Below, piece after piece: positions 2,514 through 32,152 of a stretch of 64,000 nucleotides of DNA. Source of the DNA: an uncultured Peptostreptococcaceae bacterium (GTDB taxonomy: Bacteria; Bacillota; Clostridia; Peptostreptococcales; Anaerovoracaceae); NCBI GenBank assembly GCA_905235115.1, contig CAJOKT010000001.1, positions 62,001 to 126,000 of the forward strand, given 5' to 3'. Positions within the stretch are counted from its first letter, which is position 1; each line of letters starts with the position of its first letter. The notes under the pieces were generated by a model, which was not told the origin of the DNA, did not search any database, and worked only from the letters and a program-made list of their open reading frames with translations. The position numbers and the translations under genes were made by a program.

Positions 2514-4191
2514 ATGTCTGAAGTTGTTAAAAAGATCGATTATCCTGAGGCCACCATGTACGAACTGGTGGAAAGGATATCGGTCAAGTATCCGGACGAC
2601 GTATGTCTGGATTTTTTCGGGAAGGGCACGACTTACAGCCAGTTCGTCCGCGAGATCGACAGTGCAGCCCGCGCCTTCACAAAACACGGGATCAAAGAGG
2701 GAGACTGCGTGACTCTGTGCATGCCTAACTGCCCTCAGGCTCTGTACAGCTTCTACGGACTGGATAAGATAGGGGCAACAGCGGCAATGATCCATCCCCA
2801 GTCTTCTCAGGAGGAGATATCTATCTACCTGAACAAGACCAGGTGCAAGATGATCCTGGTGCCGGACATGTTCTGCGAGAAGGTGGAGAAGGCTCTGGAG
2901 GCAGTTGAGCACAACTGCGAGATCCTGGTCACAAGGATCCAGGAGGAGCTGCCTTCCCATCTTAAGGCGCTGTACTTTCTCAAGGTGGGACACAAGTACA
3001 TGAAGTTCCCAAGGGGGCGGAAGCCAGATATTATGGAGAGAGTTTCTTAAGGAGGGAGAGGGCACGGAGATCCCCAAGGTACCCTATGATCCGGACAGGA
3101 CCTCTGTCATCCTGTTTTCGGGCGGCACCACCGGTAAGCCAAAGGGGATATGCCTTACGGATCTCAATATCAATGCCTGCGCACTTGAGGCCAGGGAGGC
3201 CATCGAGGTGGAATTCAGAAGAGGCCTGAAGATGCTGAGCTGCATGCCCATCTTCCACGGATTCGGGCTGGCTCTCAACATCCACATCGTGCTCATCCAC
3301 GGTGCATGCTGCCTGCTCATGCCAAACTTCAGCATCAAATCATACTCTGAGATGGTGCTGAAGAGACATCCCAGCTTCATCGTAGGCGTGCCTGCGATCT
3401 TCGATGCGTTTCTCAAGATACCAAACCTGGAGAACGAAGATCTCAGCTTTCTGGAAGGAATGTTTTGCGGCGGTGATTCCCTTACAATAGAGCAAAAAAA
3501 GAAGATCGACAGATTCCTCCGGGAGCACAATGCGCATATCATGGTGCGTGAGGGGTATGGGCTCACTGAGTGCGTGACAGCCAGCTGCCTGACGCCAAAG
3601 GATACATACAAGGAGGGAAGCATCGGACTTCCGTTCCCGGACATGGCTTATGCCATAGTAAAACCGGGCACCGATGATGTTTTGCCCTCCGGAGAAGAGG
3701 GTGAGATCATCCTCAGAGGACCTTCGGTGATGAAGGGATACCTGAACGATCCGGAGGAGACCGCGGCCGCCCTGAAAGTGCTGGGGGACGGCAACACCTG
3801 GCTTTATACCGGAGACCTTGGCAAGATGGATGAGGAAGGATATGTGTATTTCCGCCAGAGGATCAAAAGGATGATCGTGACCAACGGATATAACGTGTAT
3901 CCCGGAAACATAGAAAACGCTCTGGATGCTTGTCCTGAGGTGGATTACAGCTGCGTCATCGGCGTAAAAGATGAGAGAAAAGGTCAGAGAGTCAGGGCCT
4001 ATGTGGTCCTGAATGAAGGGTATGAGCCAACGGACAAGGTAAGAAAGTCCATCATGGAACAGCTCAGGTTAAGGGTATCGGCCTATGCTCTTCCGAAGGA
4101 GATCATTTTCAGAGGAGAACTGCCGAGAACATTGGTGGGAAAGGTAGCGTACAGGCTTCTTGAAGAAGAAGCCGGGAAGGAGTCAAAATGA
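2514..4191 (+). pseudogene. AMP-forming acyl-CoA synthetase-like gene with a single-base frameshift
   Basis: The two halves of an ANL-superfamily adenylate-forming ligase (ATP + carboxylate to acyl-AMP, then thioester) lie in different frames. The first half (2514-3050, GGAG at 2501-2504 as RBS) reads into an early stop. The second half is open in the +1 frame and contains ILFSGGTTGKPKG, YGLTECVT, YTGDLGKMDEEGY, NGYNVYPGNIE and the C-terminal LPRTLVGKVAY with the catalytic Lys. Removing one G from the G5 run at 3013-3017 joins the halves as FPRGGSQILWREFLKEGEG and gives an intact protein of about 558 residues with all motifs. This is therefore a recent frameshift, a phase-variable tract or a sequencing error. 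The downstream gene overlaps its stop by ATGA, which argues the full frame was translated until recently. Confidence 0.85.
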
Positions 4192-5078
4192 GTGAAAAAC
4201 CTGCGAAAAAGTTGGGAGACAGAAGAGACGGAAGGTATATAAAGGTCCGTGGACTTCAGACTATCATGGGATATCTTTTTCCGAAAAGGACTGATTCCGA
4301 GGTGTATCTCAGCGACAAACTGGATGCTACTGAACTCCTGAAATATCTCGACAGGATAAATGCGGAACATCCTGAATACAAAATTACTATTTTTCACTGT
4401 GTTCTGACCACTGTGGCCAGAATAATCAGGGAACGGCCTCTTCTCAACAGATTCGTCCAGGGCTACCGCACATATGAGAGAGACGAGATAAGCCTTAGCT
4501 TCGTGGCAAAGAGAAGATTTTCCGACGGAGGGGAAGAAGCCCTCATGCGGCTGGTTCCTACTGATCAGGATAATCTGGACTCCATCAGCCGGAAGGTGGT
4601 GGGGGACGTGAAGGAAATGAGGAAGAGCGAGAAGGCCACCGGCGGCATCGATGAGCTTCTGGATAAGTTCGCAGCCATACCCAGACCTCTTCTCATGATC
4701 ATAATCAGGTTCGTCAGGATACTGGACTTCTGGGGCAAGAACCCCAAGGTGCTGACAGAAGGGGACCCCAACTACAGCACAGTGCTCCTCAGCAATCTGG
4801 GAAGCATCAAATGTCCCCACGTATATCATCACCTGAATGATTACGGGACAAACAGCATCATGATAACTGTGGGCACTCTCCACAAGGAAGAGATGCTCAT
4901 GGAGAACGGCACCAAAGAAATCAGGGATGTGGTGGATTTCGGGGCTGTACTGGACGAGAGGATCGGGGATGGATTCTATTTTGCAAAGAGTCTGAGACTG
5001 CTCAGATATGTTTTTGAGCATCCTGATCTGCTTGAACTTGAGCTGGGCGTTCCCAGCGGCTTCAACTATGACAATTAA
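4188..5078 (+). CDS. E2 acyltransferase-like protein (CoA-dependent acyltransferase fold) lacking the catalytic His
   Basis: A 296-residue protein resembling the catalytic domain of 2-oxoacid dehydrogenase E2 enzymes without lipoyl or peripheral-subunit-binding domains. Family-like features are RERPLLNRFV (residues 81-90), SNLGSIKCP (about 202-210) and the C-terminal block DERIGDG (256-262), which sits where E2 enzymes have DHRxxDG. The aspartates, Arg and Gly are kept but the catalytic His is Glu257. It is coupled to the acyl-CoA synthetase-like gene by ATGA overlap, so the natural guess is a protein acting on the acyl thioester made by that ligase, such as an acyl-transferring or acyl-binding partner. 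No dehydrogenase E1 or E3 gene is nearby, so it is not part of a normal complex in this window. Confidence 0.65.
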   Translation: MSEKPAKKLGDRRDGRYIKVRGLQTIMGYLFPKRTDSEVYLSDKLDATELLKYLDRINAEHPEYKITIFHCVLTTVARIIRERPLLNRFVQGYRTYERDEISLSFVAKRRFSDGGEEALMRLVPTDQDNLDSISRKVVGDVKEMRKSEKATGGIDELLDKFAAIPRPLLMIIIRFVRILDFWGKNPKVLTEGDPNYSTVLLSNLGSIKCPHVYHHLNDYGTNSIMITVGTLHKEEMLMENGTKEIRDVVDFGAVLDERIGDGFYFAKSLRLLRYVFEHPDLLELELGVPSGFNYDN

Positions 5079-5139
5079 AGCATAATAATGACGGAGAACA
5101 TCAATAACATCAACTGTCTGATAACGCTTTTTGCAACAC

Positions 5140-5830
5140 TTTCTAAAAAAGCTTATAAAATAAGGATTTGTGAGGTTTAACATCTTGCATATTTAATACA
5201 AAAAATTAATAGAAATTGATAAAATTAATAAAAAAGTGATAAAAATAGTGATTTTTAGTGTTAGTATTTAGGGGTTGGTATTCCTATGCAACACTTAGAT
5301 AAAAGAGGTGATACAATGTCTTATTTAATTAGATTAGCTACAGAGCAAGATTGCGATAAATTATCTAAATTAAAACAACAAGTTTGGAGTGAAACTTATC
5401 GTGGAATATATAGTGATGAAAAAATAGATAATTTTGACTATCAAAAAAATAGTGAAAAGTTTTTAAATATTATAAATAATCCGAATATAGAATTATATGT
5501 TGTCGAAGATAATAGTAGATTAGTTGGTTATATGGATTGTGGCGTTCCGTATAGGCCTTATAAAAATTATAAGCAAGAAATAGGATTATTATATTTACTA
5601 AAAGAATATCAAAGAAAAGGAATTGGTAAAGAATTATTTAATATAGCCACTAGCAAAATAAAAGAAAATGGTTATAATGAATTCTTTGTATGTTGTAATA
5701 AATATAATATTAATGCACAAGAGTTCTATAAAAGAATGGGTGGATTAGTAGATGAAATTGATAACGAAAATACAGATAAATCTATTCCACAAGTAACATT
5801 TATATATAAAATTTAAAGGAGATGACTCTC
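5140..5830 (+). other. AT-rich island, probably horizontally acquired
   Basis: Base composition drops sharply after the E2-like gene: the stretch holds long A and T runs and the single GNAT gene uses almost only A/T-ending codons (AAA, ATA, TTA, AGA), unlike every neighbour. Composition returns to normal about ten codons into rbgA. I see no transposase, integrase, terminal inverted repeats or target duplication. 5079-5315 holds no gene; it has a weak AT-rich hairpin at 5126-5152 and a possible promoter (TTGATA 5216-5221, AT-rich -10 near 5239). Confidence 0.65.
5316..5816 (+). CDS. GNAT family N-acetyltransferase (AT-rich, probably acquired)
   Basis: A 166-residue GCN5-related acetyltransferase: residues near 85-110 carry IGLLYLLKEYQRKGIGKELF, which contains the acetyl-CoA pyrophosphate-binding R/Q-x-x-G-x-G/A pattern, and the C-terminal NINAQEFYKRMGG block is the usual strand-helix end of the fold. 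It transfers an acetyl group from acetyl-CoA to an amine; the substrate (antibiotic, polyamine, protein or small metabolite) cannot be read from the sequence. I chose ATG 5316 because AGAGGTGAT lies just upstream; an in-frame ATG at 5286 has no RBS. The gene is far richer in A+T than its neighbours and sits alone between the E2-like gene and rbgA, pointing to transfer from a low-GC donor. Confidence 0.85.
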   Translation: MSYLIRLATEQDCDKLSKLKQQVWSETYRGIYSDEKIDNFDYQKNSEKFLNIINNPNIELYVVEDNSRLVGYMDCGVPYRPYKNYKQEIGLLYLLKEYQRKGIGKELFNIATSKIKENGYNEFFVCCNKYNINAQEFYKRMGGLVDEIDNENTDKSIPQVTFIYKI

Positions 5831-6730
5831 ATGAATGAAAATAAAACTAATATAAACTGGTATCCCGGTCACATGAAGAAGACCAGGGAACTGATACAAC
5901 AGAATCTGAAGCTCGTGGATCTGGTCATCGAGATGCTGGACGCAAGGATCCCGGTATCATCCAGGAATCCGGTGATAAACGAGATCACGGGCAGCAAGAG
6001 GCGTGTGATCGTTCTCAACAAAAGCGACCTGGCCGATGCCGAGTCCACAAAAAACTGGATCAGGTACTTCAGGGACGAGGGCCATGAAGCTCTGAAACTC
6101 AACTGCAACAAGGGTCTGGGCTTCAGGGAGCTTTATTCAGCGTTGGAAAAGATCCAGGACGAGGTGAACTCGGACAGAACTCTTAAGAAACCTCTCCGCA
6201 TGATGGTAGTGGGTGTTCCCAACGTGGGTAAATCCTCATTCATTAATCGCATGACGGGACGCAAGTCCGCCAAGACCGGCGATAAGCCGGGGGTGACTCG
6301 AGGCAAGCAGTGGCTCACCGTTGAGAACGGCATGCAGCTCCTGGATACACCCGGCATCCTCTGGCCAAAGTTTGAAGACCCGAAGACCGGACTCTACCTT
6401 GCGTTCTGCGGCTCCATCAGGGATGAGATACTGGACATCGAGGGGCTGGGACTGGAGCTAATGAAAGTGCTTTCCGACCAGTATCCGGACCTACTCATGG
6501 CCAGGTACAAACTGGATGAACTATGCTATCCGGGAGATTACAGCGAGTCACTTGAAAGAGAAGCTGAGGACGAAAGGGAGGCGGCTCTGGCAAACATGGA
6601 ATCCATAGCGATAAAGCGCGGCTTCATACTTCCCGGAAGGAGGATCAACTATACCAGAACTTCTGAGACTGTGCTGGATGAGTTCCGGGCAGGCACCATC
6701 GGTAGAATGACCTTGGAGAAGGCAGACTGA
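5831..6730 (+). CDS. rbgA: Ribosome biogenesis GTPase RbgA/YlqF
   Basis: A 299-residue circularly permuted GTPase needed for a late step of 50S subunit assembly. The permuted order is visible: G4 (NKSD, about residue 62) precedes G1 (GVPNVGKSS, about 127) and G3 (DTPG, about 175), and the N-terminal NWYPGHMKKTRE is a hallmark of the YlqF family. The C-terminal region (about 210-299) is the helical RNA-binding part. AAAGGAG at 5815-5821 is 9 bases before ATG 5831; the in-frame ATG at 5822 overlaps that RBS and is rejected. The stop overlaps the rnhB start by one base (TGATG), the same rbgA-rnhB order as in Bacillus. The first nine codons are AT-rich like the island just upstream. Confidence 0.95.
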   Translation: MNENKTNINWYPGHMKKTRELIQQNLKLVDLVIEMLDARIPVSSRNPVINEITGSKRRVIVLNKSDLADAESTKNWIRYFRDEGHEALKLNCNKGLGFRELYSALEKIQDEVNSDRTLKKPLRMMVVGVPNVGKSSFINRMTGRKSAKTGDKPGVTRGKQWLTVENGMQLLDTPGILWPKFEDPKTGLYLAFCGSIRDEILDIEGLGLELMKVLSDQYPDLLMARYKLDELCYPGDYSESLEREAEDEREAALANMESIAIKRGFILPGRRINYTRTSETVLDEFRAGTIGRMTLEKAD

Positions 6731-29027: not shown

Positions 29028-30383
29028 ATGATAAGATTCTACATAGCCCTGTGGGCCGCAAAGCTTTTTCAGGTTTTTTACAATTTAAAAGGTTTTCCGA
29101 AAACGGACAGGCCCGGTCTTCTTGCCTGCAAGATCTGCCCTGACTTCCTGGAAAGGATCGCCAAGCCTAAGCTGGTGATCACTGTGACCGGCACGGACGG
29201 CAAGACCACATCGTCCACGCTGCTCAACAATTTCCTCAGGTCCCAGGGTCTTCAGACATCCTTCAACGACTGGGGAGCCAACATGATGGCCGGCTATGCG
29301 GTGAATCTCATGAGAGGAGTGAACATCTTCAATCATTCAAGGATAGACGCGTCGATCCTTGAGGCTGATGAACTTTCCCTGGATACCTACATGCCCAGGA
29401 TCAAACCCGACTATATCTTCGTCACCAATATCTGCAAGGACAGTCTCAGAAGAAACGGACATCCTGAAAATATATTCAACCACATCGAGCACACCTTCAG
29501 GCTTCTGGGGGAGCGCACCAAGGGCGTTATTAATGCCAGCGACCCCATATCGTGCGAGCTAAACAGAGATGGCAGGAACGTTTATTTCGCCATGGGCGAC
29601 ACCAAGACCGATCCATTCCCTAACATCTCAAAGGACATCGCCATCTGCCCCAGATGCGGCGGAAAGATCATATATGATTACAGACATTACAGGCATATCG
29701 GCAAGTTCCATTGTGAAAGCTGCGGCTTCAGAAATCCCGAGGCGGACGTTTACGCGGATGCAGTGGACCTGAAGAACCGCAAGATGACCGTGAACGGTCA
29801 TGAGTATCCTCTGATCTCCGACACGGTCTTCAACGCTTTCAACGTTCTTTCCATCGTAGCCATGCTCACGGAGCTGGGCTACAGGGATGATACCATAGCA
29901 GAGTTTCTCGGGGGGCAGAGGGTAACGAATATCCGTGAAGACAGCGTTGAGTACAACGGGATCGAGTACATTGCATTCGCCGCCAAGTCTCAGAATGTTT
30001 CTGCGGCTTCCGTGGTTTTCGAATATATGGCCAAGGAACCGTCTGACAAGGATGTGGTGCTTCTCATGGACGAGGTCCAGGACAAGAATCATCCCACAGA
30101 GACCCTTACCTGGCTCTACGAGACAGACTATGAGTTCCTGAACAGCCCCAATATCAGGAAGATCATCGTGGGCGGCCACATGTACCTCAATCATAAGCTG
30201 AGGATGCTTCTCGCAGGGATCCCCCGGGAAAAGATCGCTGCTGTGGAGGACGAGGCCGACATACCTCAGAATGTGGACAGGGAAGGCATCACCAAGGTAT
30301 ACGTGCTCTTTGAGACCGACTGCGTGACCAAAGCAAAAAATATGAGAGACGCCATAGTAAGATACGCTAAGGAGGGAAAATAA
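29028..30383 (+). CDS. MurT-like Mur ligase / lipid II isoglutaminyl synthase subunit homologue (divergent)
   Basis: A 451-residue Mur-ligase-fold protein. Bona fide MurT uses ATP to activate the D-Glu carboxyl of lipid II, and ammonia from GatD makes D-isoglutamine. Here the P-loop GTDGKTT (residues 55-61), LEADELSLDTY and the MurT-specific four-cysteine zinc ribbon (Cys207, 210, 229, 232) are present. The C-terminal DUF1727 domain is divergent: the block that normally reads close to DGRDxSWLWD is replaced by HPTETLTWLYE, putting Glu358 about where the Asp essential in S. aureus MurT lies (alignment from memory). GAGGAG is the RBS. The next gene is a GatD-like protein starting at the very next base, then an ATP-grasp ligase. 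Amidation of lipid II is possible but a different amide-bond reaction is equally likely. Confidence 0.8.
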   Translation: MIRFYIALWAAKLFQVFYNLKGFPKTDRPGLLACKICPDFLERIAKPKLVITVTGTDGKTTSSTLLNNFLRSQGLQTSFNDWGANMMAGYAVNLMRGVNIFNHSRIDASILEADELSLDTYMPRIKPDYIFVTNICKDSLRRNGHPENIFNHIEHTFRLLGERTKGVINASDPISCELNRDGRNVYFAMGDTKTDPFPNISKDIAICPRCGGKIIYDYRHYRHIGKFHCESCGFRNPEADVYADAVDLKNRKMTVNGHEYPLISDTVFNAFNVLSIVAMLTELGYRDDTIAEFLGGQRVTNIREDSVEYNGIEYIAFAAKSQNVSAASVVFEYMAKEPSDKDVVLLMDEVQDKNHPTETLTWLYETDYEFLNSPNIRKIIVGGHMYLNHKLRMLLAGIPREKIAAVEDEADIPQNVDREGITKVYVLFETDCVTKAKNMRDAIVRYAKEGK

Positions 30384-31097
30384 ATGAAAAATGTAGAATT
30401 TATCTTTCCTGAATACACCAATATCTACGGCGAAAGCTACAACATGGAATATCTCAGGAGATGCAGCCCCGAGATCAGCATCGTTGAGACTCATCCGGGG
30501 GACGTGCCGCTTTTCGCAAGAGGTGAGGCGGACATGGTCTACATGGGCTGCATGACCGAGGAAAAGCAGGAGAAGGCCATAGAACTCCTCATACCATACA
30601 GAGATCAGCTCATCGACGCCATACAGAAGGGCGTGATCTTTCTGGTGACCGGCAACGCTCTTGAGATATTCGGCACATCCATCGAGGGCGATGAGGTCAT
30701 GAGCGATGAAAAGATCCACATCCGCGGACTTTCCATCTTCGACTACAAGTCGGTGAGGCACATGAAGGATATGCGCCACAATTCCCAGTACATCGGAAAT
30801 TTCGACGGCATGATCCTTCTTGGTCACAGAAGTCAGTACAGCTTCTGTTACGGAGATTTCGACAATTATTTCATTGACATATTCAAGGGTATCGGCATGA
30901 ATCCGGACACCAAAAGGGAAGGGGTCCACGTGAGGAACTTCTTTGCGACCTATTCTCTCGGGCCCTGCTTCATTATGAACCCGCACTTCCTGAAGTACAT
31001 ACTCAGGCTTCTTGGACTGGATGACGATATCCCCTTTGAAAAGGAGGCCATGGAAGCTTACGAGTACAGACTTAACGAGCTGAGGAGGACCTTATGA
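30384..31097 (+). CDS. GatD-like (CobB/CobQ-type glutaminase fold) protein lacking catalytic Cys and His
   Basis: A 237-residue protein that aligns with GatD, the glutaminase partner of MurT, along its whole length: IYGESYNMEYL matches the N-terminal strand, EADMVYMG the GGG-loop region, and LIDAIQKGVIFLVTGNALEIFG the nucleophile elbow. In GatD the elbow is ICGGYQ; here the Cys position is Gly90 in VTGNALE. The later GTYLHGP motif, which supplies the catalytic His, reads ATYSLGP (188-194), with Leu192 at the His position. Both residues needed for glutamine hydrolysis are therefore gone. The gene starts immediately after the MurT-like stop and overlaps the ATP-grasp gene by ATGA. It probably remains as a structural or substrate-binding partner of the MurT-like subunit (inference). 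Confidence 0.75.
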   Translation: MKNVEFIFPEYTNIYGESYNMEYLRRCSPEISIVETHPGDVPLFARGEADMVYMGCMTEEKQEKAIELLIPYRDQLIDAIQKGVIFLVTGNALEIFGTSIEGDEVMSDEKIHIRGLSIFDYKSVRHMKDMRHNSQYIGNFDGMILLGHRSQYSFCYGDFDNYFIDIFKGIGMNPDTKREGVHVRNFFATYSLGPCFIMNPHFLKYILRLLGLDDDIPFEKEAMEAYEYRLNELRRTL

Positions 31098-32152
31098 ACC
31101 TTTCCTTCTACCTCAAAAAACTAAAGGGCCTTGACCTTTCCAGGTTCAGGGAGACCGCGAAAAGAGTTTCTGCCATTACGGGAAGACCCTGGAGAGCAGT
31201 ACTTCTTGACATCTATTTCTGCACAATAAAATACGGTTCAGGCCATGTGGACTATGAAGCCTTCAGAATGTATGAAAAGAACAGCAGGCAGAGGGCAGAG
31301 ATCCTGACTGTCGGTAAGAACAACAAGCTTTATAAGCAGTTCAACGATCTCAGGTATATCAACTACTTTGAGAGCAAGGCCATGTTCAACAAGAAGTTCG
31401 ATGAGTACGTAAAGAGAGACTGGATGCTGGCAGGAGAGGGCATCCTGTACGGAGAGACCGAAGGAACTGCCCTTCCTTCTGACGCAAGAGTACCCGGACA
31501 GGGGATCGAAGCGTTAAGAGAATTCATCAGGGACAAGGAATATATCATTGCTAAGCCTCTTGGACTTAGCTGCGGTTCCGGAATAGAAAAGATCAAAGTA
31601 TCAGACTGGGATCCTGAGGCTCTCTACGATCATCTGGTAAAGGATTCAAAGCCCCTTGTGGAAGAGGTGGTCAGACAGCATAAGACCATGGATCTGCTCT
31701 GTTCCACTTCTGTCAACACCATCAGGGTCATCACTATTTTGCAGAACGGCGAAGCCAAGATCGTTGCCGGAGGCATCCGCATGGGTCAGAACGGCATATT
31801 CGTTGACAATTTCAACGCAGGTGGTATAGGCGTAGTATACGATCTGAACACCGGAGTGGTCATATCGGATGGCTACGACAAACAGAGAGGGGTCTATAAG
31901 ACAGTTCCTGAATCGGGAGTGACCCTCAAAGGCTTCCGGATCCCTCAGTGGGAGGAGATAGTGAAGCTGGTAAAGGAAGCCTCACTGGTGGTGCCCCAGG
32001 TGGGATATGTGGGCTGGGATGTGGCTGTCAGCGCTGACCGGGGACCTCTTCTCATAGAGGGCAACAGTTATCCCGGACAGGATAATGCCCAGGAGCCGGA
32101 TCTGGATGCGGGGACCTACAGTTCCATCATGCGCATTTTATACGAAGGTTGA
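31094..32152 (+). CDS. ATP-grasp ligase (sugar-transfer-associated ATP-grasp type)
   Basis: A 352-residue protein whose C-terminal two thirds is an ATP-grasp domain of the sugar-transfer-associated type: EYIIAKPLGLSCGSGIEKI (lysine and glycine-rich lid), LVEEVVRQHKTM, SVNTIRVITIL, GGIRMGQNGIFVDNFNAGG and the metal-binding end LLIEGNSYPGQDN. Such enzymes join a carboxylate to an amine or thiol through an acyl phosphate. The N-terminal ~100 residues are basic and helical. It overlaps the GatD-like gene by 4 bases, so the MurT-like, GatD-like and ATP-grasp proteins should be made together. A possible job is adding an amino acid or amine to the same envelope precursor on which the MurT-like protein acts; this is inference. 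Confidence 0.75.
   Translation: MNLSFYLKKLKGLDLSRFRETAKRVSAITGRPWRAVLLDIYFCTIKYGSGHVDYEAFRMYEKNSRQRAEILTVGKNNKLYKQFNDLRYINYFESKAMFNKKFDEYVKRDWMLAGEGILYGETEGTALPSDARVPGQGIEALREFIRDKEYIIAKPLGLSCGSGIEKIKVSDWDPEALYDHLVKDSKPLVEEVVRQHKTMDLLCSTSVNTIRVITILQNGEAKIVAGGIRMGQNGIFVDNFNAGGIGVVYDLNTGVVISDGYDKQRGVYKTVPESGVTLKGFRIPQWEEIVKLVKEASLVVPQVGYVGWDVAVSADRGPLLIEGNSYPGQDNAQEPDLDAGTYSSIMRILYEG

Follow-up and report, generated by a model that had tools for sequence, protein, structure and literature searches.

The isoglutaminyl synthase MurT-GatD is a drug target in several Gram-positive pathogens. The described synthases of Staphylococcus aureus (6gs2, 7q8e), Streptococcus pneumoniae (6fqb) and Streptococcus pyogenes (9sq9) are encoded by a two-gene operon and have in common the middle and C-terminal ligase domains of MurT, a Cys4 zinc ribbon, a P-loop and a metal-binding Glu. 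MurT is thought to phosphorylate the alpha-carboxyl of D-glutamate (D-Glu) in lipid I/II, and GatD frees ammonia from glutamine, which then moves to MurT (PMC6085368, PMC3266927). The glutaminase triad of S. aureus draws its third residue from MurT, whose D349 contacts H189 of GatD, and mutagenesis backs the roles of C94 and D349 (PMC6113224). Here we compare these enzymes with a three-gene cassette found in a 64,000-nucleotide stretch of DNA (the window) from an uncultured Peptostreptococcaceae bacterium. The cassette encodes a MurT-like ligase, a GatD-like protein and an ATP-grasp ligase, and it shares the operon, domains and motifs listed above. Unlike the window's cassette, the described synthases have the triad, carry Q98 and G95 in GatD (here Glu and Asn), have a shorter triad loop in MurT and come without an additional ATP-grasp gene. 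The cassette is a triad-less variant of MurT-GatD, and falls outside the glutamine-hydrolysing family on the triad, a tested defining feature of that family.

Glutaminase site and ligase site

With the triad numbered as in S. aureus (GatD C94 and H189, MurT D349), alignment pairs G90 of the window's GatD-like protein with C94, and L192 with H189. Both catalytic residues are gone, as a first-pass annotation of this DNA had read. The same annotation described an altered C-terminal block in the MurT-like protein, with E358 about where an essential catalytic Asp was expected. The alteration is real and class-wide, with R348 replaced by Glu in 107 of 116 triad-less pairs, but the register differs: it is R348 that pairs with E358, whereas D349 pairs with T359. 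Nor is this a change in the catalytic site of the ligase, as had been supposed, because D349 belongs to the glutaminase triad and the ligase residues are intact. Since D349 is the triad's third member, all three lost residues serve one activity, glutamine hydrolysis.

The P-loop (K59) and the Cys4 zinc ribbon (C207, C210, C229 and C232, all invariant in the alignment) are retained, in agreement with the initial reading, and so is the metal-binding E112, the counterpart of S. aureus E108. Alignment to S. aureus MurT covers most of the MurT-like protein (E = 3e-40), which scores 61.5 bits against PF08353 MurT_C (cut-off 25) and also matches Mur_ligase_M. Among the features by which membership in the glutamine-hydrolysing GatD/MurT family was judged, those of the ligase side are all present (MurT_C, the P-loop Lys, the metal Glu and no N-terminal uridine diphosphate (UDP)-binding domain), as are the zinc ribbon and a GatD fold adjoining murT. 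The glutaminase triad is absent from the window's pair, and the NCBIfam isoglutaminyl-synthase equivalog models are matched far under their cut-offs (147 of 800 bits for MurT, 46.6 of 450 bits for GatD).

The GatD-like protein aligns with S. aureus GatD (E = 7e-9) and narrowly exceeds the cut-off for PF07685 GATase_3 (27.1 bits, cut-off 27). Its AlphaFold2 model, made with 22 relatives in the alignment, has a predicted local distance difference test (pLDDT) score of 95.2. In the PDB it most resembles chains of S. aureus GatD, with a template modelling (TM) score of 0.85 to 6gs2_A. No relocated Cys/His pair is evident in the pocket, and neither residue occurs in the invariant or near-invariant columns of the GatD-like proteins. 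The glutamine-binding R128 pairs with the near-invariant R131 by profile alignment, so it is not counted as lost. Read from these residues, the window's GatD-like protein is predicted to be unable to split glutamine by the known mechanism.

Triad-less pairs across genomes

The pairs compared come from the GTDB family, order and phylum of the window and from a single scan across species genomes. Because the sampling favoured triad-less pairs, counts are not prevalences, though the absence of mixed pairs is informative. The 147 distinct MurT/GatD pairs fall into two groups with no mixed cases: 31 have the GatD Cys and His together with the MurT Asp, and 116 lack Cys and His alike. The MurT Asp (D349) is also gone in 113 of the 116, and the ligase residues persist, with the P-loop Lys (K59) in 115 and the metal Glu (E108) in every one. 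The species scan gave up to 477 related places, some of them possibly canonical, as S. aureus MurT itself fits one of the search patterns. When the two proteins were joined and a tree was built without the triad columns, a single bipartition (support 0.999) parted triad-less from canonical pairs with one state change, and the 13 pairs of the window's class (class A) formed a fully supported clade. Named carriers of triad-less pairs are [Eubacterium] infirmum, Mogibacterium pumilum, Mobilibacterium timonense, Baileyella intestinalis and Alterileibacterium massiliense; many further carriers are gut and rumen metagenome-assembled genomes.

The view that the operon has been kept despite the loss of the triad, also put forward at first pass, is borne out by substitution rates. 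Between the window and its sister species, the ratio of nonsynonymous to synonymous substitution rates (dN/dS) is 0.025 for GatD, 0.030 for MurT and 0.054 for the ATP-grasp protein; dS is high and the values are rough, and a ratio of ~0.03 for the pair indicates strong purifying selection. The same losses in 116 distinct pairs disfavour chance as the source of the window's changes. A decaying GatD that hitch-hikes in its operon would account for the missing catalytic residues, but this is scarcely credible given the low dN/dS, the 116 distinct pairs with the same replacements, the confidently predicted GatD fold and the retention of an intact pair through rearrangements of gene order. We reject decay of GatD on the dN/dS and the 116 parallel cases. 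Triad-less MurT-GatD is a conserved sub-family. No description of a natural triad-less GatD was found in the open-access literature, subscription literature lying outside the search.

Much of the pocket has been rebuilt in the sub-family. The nucleophile elbow ICGGYQ becomes TGNALE in triad-less GatD: among the 116 proteins, C94 is replaced by Gly in 115, G95 by Asn in 109, Q98 by Glu or Asp in 109 and E147 by Lys or Arg in 100, and the ENH motif at 147-149 becomes K/R-S-Q. On the MurT side, the positions that best separate the two groups lie in the 345-349 loop, which is three residues longer in triad-less pairs, and in the loop at about S. aureus 135-142, which matches the proposed ammonia channel of S. 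pneumoniae (PMC6085368). As read from the alignment, this pattern of replacement is that of a new ligand and path rather than of simple loss. Two acidic gains, E94 in the window's GatD-like protein and E358 in its MurT-like partner, would suit a positively charged ligand, which could be ammonium or an amino acid bound by its amino group.

Some members of the sub-family are unusual. In one class A MurT (L044, positions 2-1219 of G003:C127), one of two flanking a shared ATP-grasp gene, the P-loop is destroyed (GTDDAAD); this MurT lies at a contig end and may be truncated or hybrid, or may be a pseudo-ligase partner. In another deep class of triad-less MurT (L063, L064, L073 and L074; genomes G030, G097, G078 and G014), the gene directly adjoins a MurE-like gene, and some of the genomes are without an obvious GatD.

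Candidate donors and acceptors

The added second ligase, which the first-pass annotation treated as part of the system, does belong to it. An ATP-grasp gene adjoins 52 of 91 triad-less loci versus 0 of 26 canonical loci with comparable flanks (Fisher p = 2.6e-8, kinship ignored). It lies within 2.6 kb of the pair in 13/13 class A cases and in 39 of the 78 other triad-less pairs that could be judged, and at the level of whole genomes PF14397 occurs in 17 of 20 triad-less genomes versus 1 of 14 other genomes of the family. Its placement differs among loci (downstream of the pair, upstream of it, convergent with it or between two pairs), and the association has therefore outlasted rearrangement. 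The window's protein falls within PF14397 ATPgrasp_ST by score (157 bits, cut-off 31.4) and carries the ATP-grasp signature. This signature and its nearest folds are common to the amino-acid ATP-grasp ligases (BacD/YwfE, RimK, Ddl); the matches of its model to these amino-acid/peptide ligases are weak (TM ~0.4), and a search by sequence profile matched no PDB chain.

Class A genomes carry more than one such complex. A second triad-less pair was found in 8/8 class A genomes of the family sample, and four loci of the species scan hold a class A pair and another pair in the same cluster. No canonical murT-gatD, which the first-pass annotation had suggested looking for, was found elsewhere in the window's genome; its only other pair, which is divergent and adjoins uvrA (L003, 4614-5986 on contig C62), has a GatD without Cys and His. 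The MurT of this uvrA-side pair retains the Asp of the triad loop (HFDLSWLYD), and its counterpart in the sister species is L062 (G102:C48). Two further GATase_3 matches in the window's genome (L004, L005) sit in larger open frames. Two complexes carrying out the same free-ammonia reaction would be redundant, so at least one of them would be expected to use a different donor or acceptor.

Our tentative preference, which we regard as close to an even call, is that the triad-less complex makes an amide on a lipid-linked stem peptide using a nucleophile other than glutamine-derived ammonia, with the ATP-grasp ligase aiding and the identity of the donor being what we infer. The preference draws on the all-or-none triad, the intact ligase residues, purifying selection, the conserved new residues, the ATP-grasp link and the second pairs. 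That the nucleophile has changed, as was first proposed, can soundly be inferred from the sequences, and the replacement would probably be an amino acid. Triad-less MurT is likely to keep the mode of action of a MurT-type ligase, and would activate a carboxyl of the precursor by turning it into an acyl phosphate; the alpha-carboxyl of D-Glu-2 is the most likely one. What the old glutamine pocket and ammonia path of the triad-less proteins would bind and deliver is a ready-made nucleophile, with an amino acid or a diamine the most likely kinds, and the ATP-grasp ligase may supply or extend the nucleophile unit. The resulting stem peptide would be branched or bridged instead of carrying plain D-isoglutamine.

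Several points weigh against a new nucleophile. At pH 8.5, purified S. aureus MurT paired with the engineered GatD C94G uses free ammonia normally to amidate lipid II (PMC3266927), so that loss of the Cys alone demands no such change. GatD is needed for amidation even when ammonia is supplied (PMC3266927, PMC6085368). The acidic-pocket argument is drawn from an alignment and not from the structure of a complex. Outside class A, an adjoining ATP-grasp gene is missing from about half of the triad-less pairs that could be judged, PF14397 has no match at the chosen threshold in genomes of the E. infirmum type (G011, G095) or in G083, and the association statistics take no account of relatedness. 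The main rival reading, a serious one with a direct precedent in C94G though somewhat less likely in our estimate, is an ammonia-dependent isoglutaminyl synthase in which GatD is a structural subunit, D-isoglutamine is made from the free ammonia that is abundant in gut and rumen, and the ATP-grasp ligase has a separate job on the same precursor. The natural Cys-to-Gly change, present in 115 of 116 pairs, is identical to the engineered one, and canonical and triad-less pairs occur together in none of the genomes examined, as expected for replacement. However, C94G is a single laboratory change in an intact pocket, whereas in the window's cassette the changes extend to the His, Asp, Gln and adjoining residues and have been conserved. 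Free ammonia would leave unexplained the conserved new pocket residues, the linkage to the ATP-grasp gene and the two triad-less pairs per genome, and the donor of the S. aureus enzyme at neutral pH is glutamine, not ammonia.

The acceptor, rather than the donor, may also have changed. Pfam describes PF14397 as associated with sugar transfer, the S. aureus stretch DNAADGRD, linked to binding of the stem peptide, has given way to one that is longer by three residues in nearly all the triad-less MurT sequences inspected, and two pairs per genome suggest two substrates. These observations could fit amidation of, or ligation to, another lipid-linked molecule (teichoic acid, capsule or a dedicated metabolite) with the PF14397 protein as a surface-polysaccharide partner. 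We consider this unlikely, as the neighbours in the window are not a polysaccharide cluster and the MurT features linked to lipid II are kept, namely the lack of an N-terminal UDP-binding domain, the zinc ribbon, and the loop Asp/Arg at S. pneumoniae 136/140.

The layout of the cassette (Table 1) is as first described, with a 0-base junction between the MurT and GatD genes and a 4-base ATGA overlap between the GatD and ATP-grasp genes. Its neighbours (cardiolipin synthase, miaB, an M50 peptidase, nth and uppP) are general housekeeping and envelope genes. Elsewhere in the window, G+C falls locally to 0.395 at 4001-6000, versus ~0.50 in the remainder, possibly marking acquired DNA.

Table 1. Genes of the triad-less cassette, with positions in the window
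Product	Position	Strand	Family and residues
MurT-like Mur ligase, 451 aa	29028..30383	+	PF08353 MurT_C; P-loop TGTDGKT, metal Glu112, Cys4 zinc ribbon
GatD-like protein, class I amidotransferase fold, 237 aa	30384..31097	+	PF07685; G90/L192 in place of catalytic Cys/His; T89-G90-N91 and E94 conserved new pocket residues
ATP-grasp ligase, 352 aa	31094..32152	+	PF14397 ATPgrasp_ST; E322 and N324 invariant in alignment

Cell wall context and implications

MurE was not detected in the window's genome (94% complete) or in that of its sister species (86%). At the site where a third species of the genus encodes murE (G019:C50:74746-76296, L270), the flanking genes are adjacent in the window's genome with no contig break (G000:C8:39457-41201, L281/L283), and murE is missing from the same site in the sister species too (G102:C5). 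The window's genome does have MurC, MurD, MurF, MraY and MurG; no FemABX-type bridge enzymes were found there. Two related cassette-bearing genomes of another genus (G036, G111) are also without MurE; the MurE-less genomes are fragmented draft assemblies. We treat the apparent loss as a lead, in that a wall not relying on residue 3 for its cross-links would fit branching at D-Glu-2. A general replacement of MurE by the cassette was rejected because most carriers keep MurE, and the specificity type of MurE was rejected as a marker of the cassette because canonical carriers share the same non-DNPR type. The third species of the genus also carries three additional Mur-ligase genes (G019, C45 and C7), each in an open frame of ~670-700 aa, that the window's genome does not have.

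Group B (2-4) cross-linked peptidoglycan carries an amine other than ammonia on the alpha-carboxyl of D-Glu-2, and resembles the presumed product of the cassette by chemistry alone. We know of no ligase for this D-Glu modification, or for the putrescine of Cyanophora. The latter is attached to the D-Glu carboxyl at the lipid stage (mentioned in PMC3266927), and type B peptidoglycan has been reported for the genus Eubacterium (PMC11382707). In the open-access literature, we found nothing on the peptidoglycan type or muropeptides of Mogibacterium or Eubacterium carriers. A more specific proposal, and an improbable one as it stands, is that triad-less MurT-GatD and the ATP-grasp ligase form an amino-acid-adding system at D-Glu-2 that takes the first step of group B cross-links. 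In the window's species and its sister this would, together with the loss of MurE, imply cross-links that are independent of residue 3.

Automatic annotation tends to name relatives of these proteins by the function of MurT-GatD, and a glutamine-hydrolysing label would mislead for the triad-less clade, a large one whose carriers are clostridia of the gut, mouth and rumen. The carriers include cultured species, so the question of the donor is directly testable. Should the nucleophile be an amino acid, the family would be a candidate source of enzymes that add amino acids to the D-Glu carboxyl, and, if the favoured reading is true, the peptidoglycan fragments that these commensals show to NOD receptors would differ.

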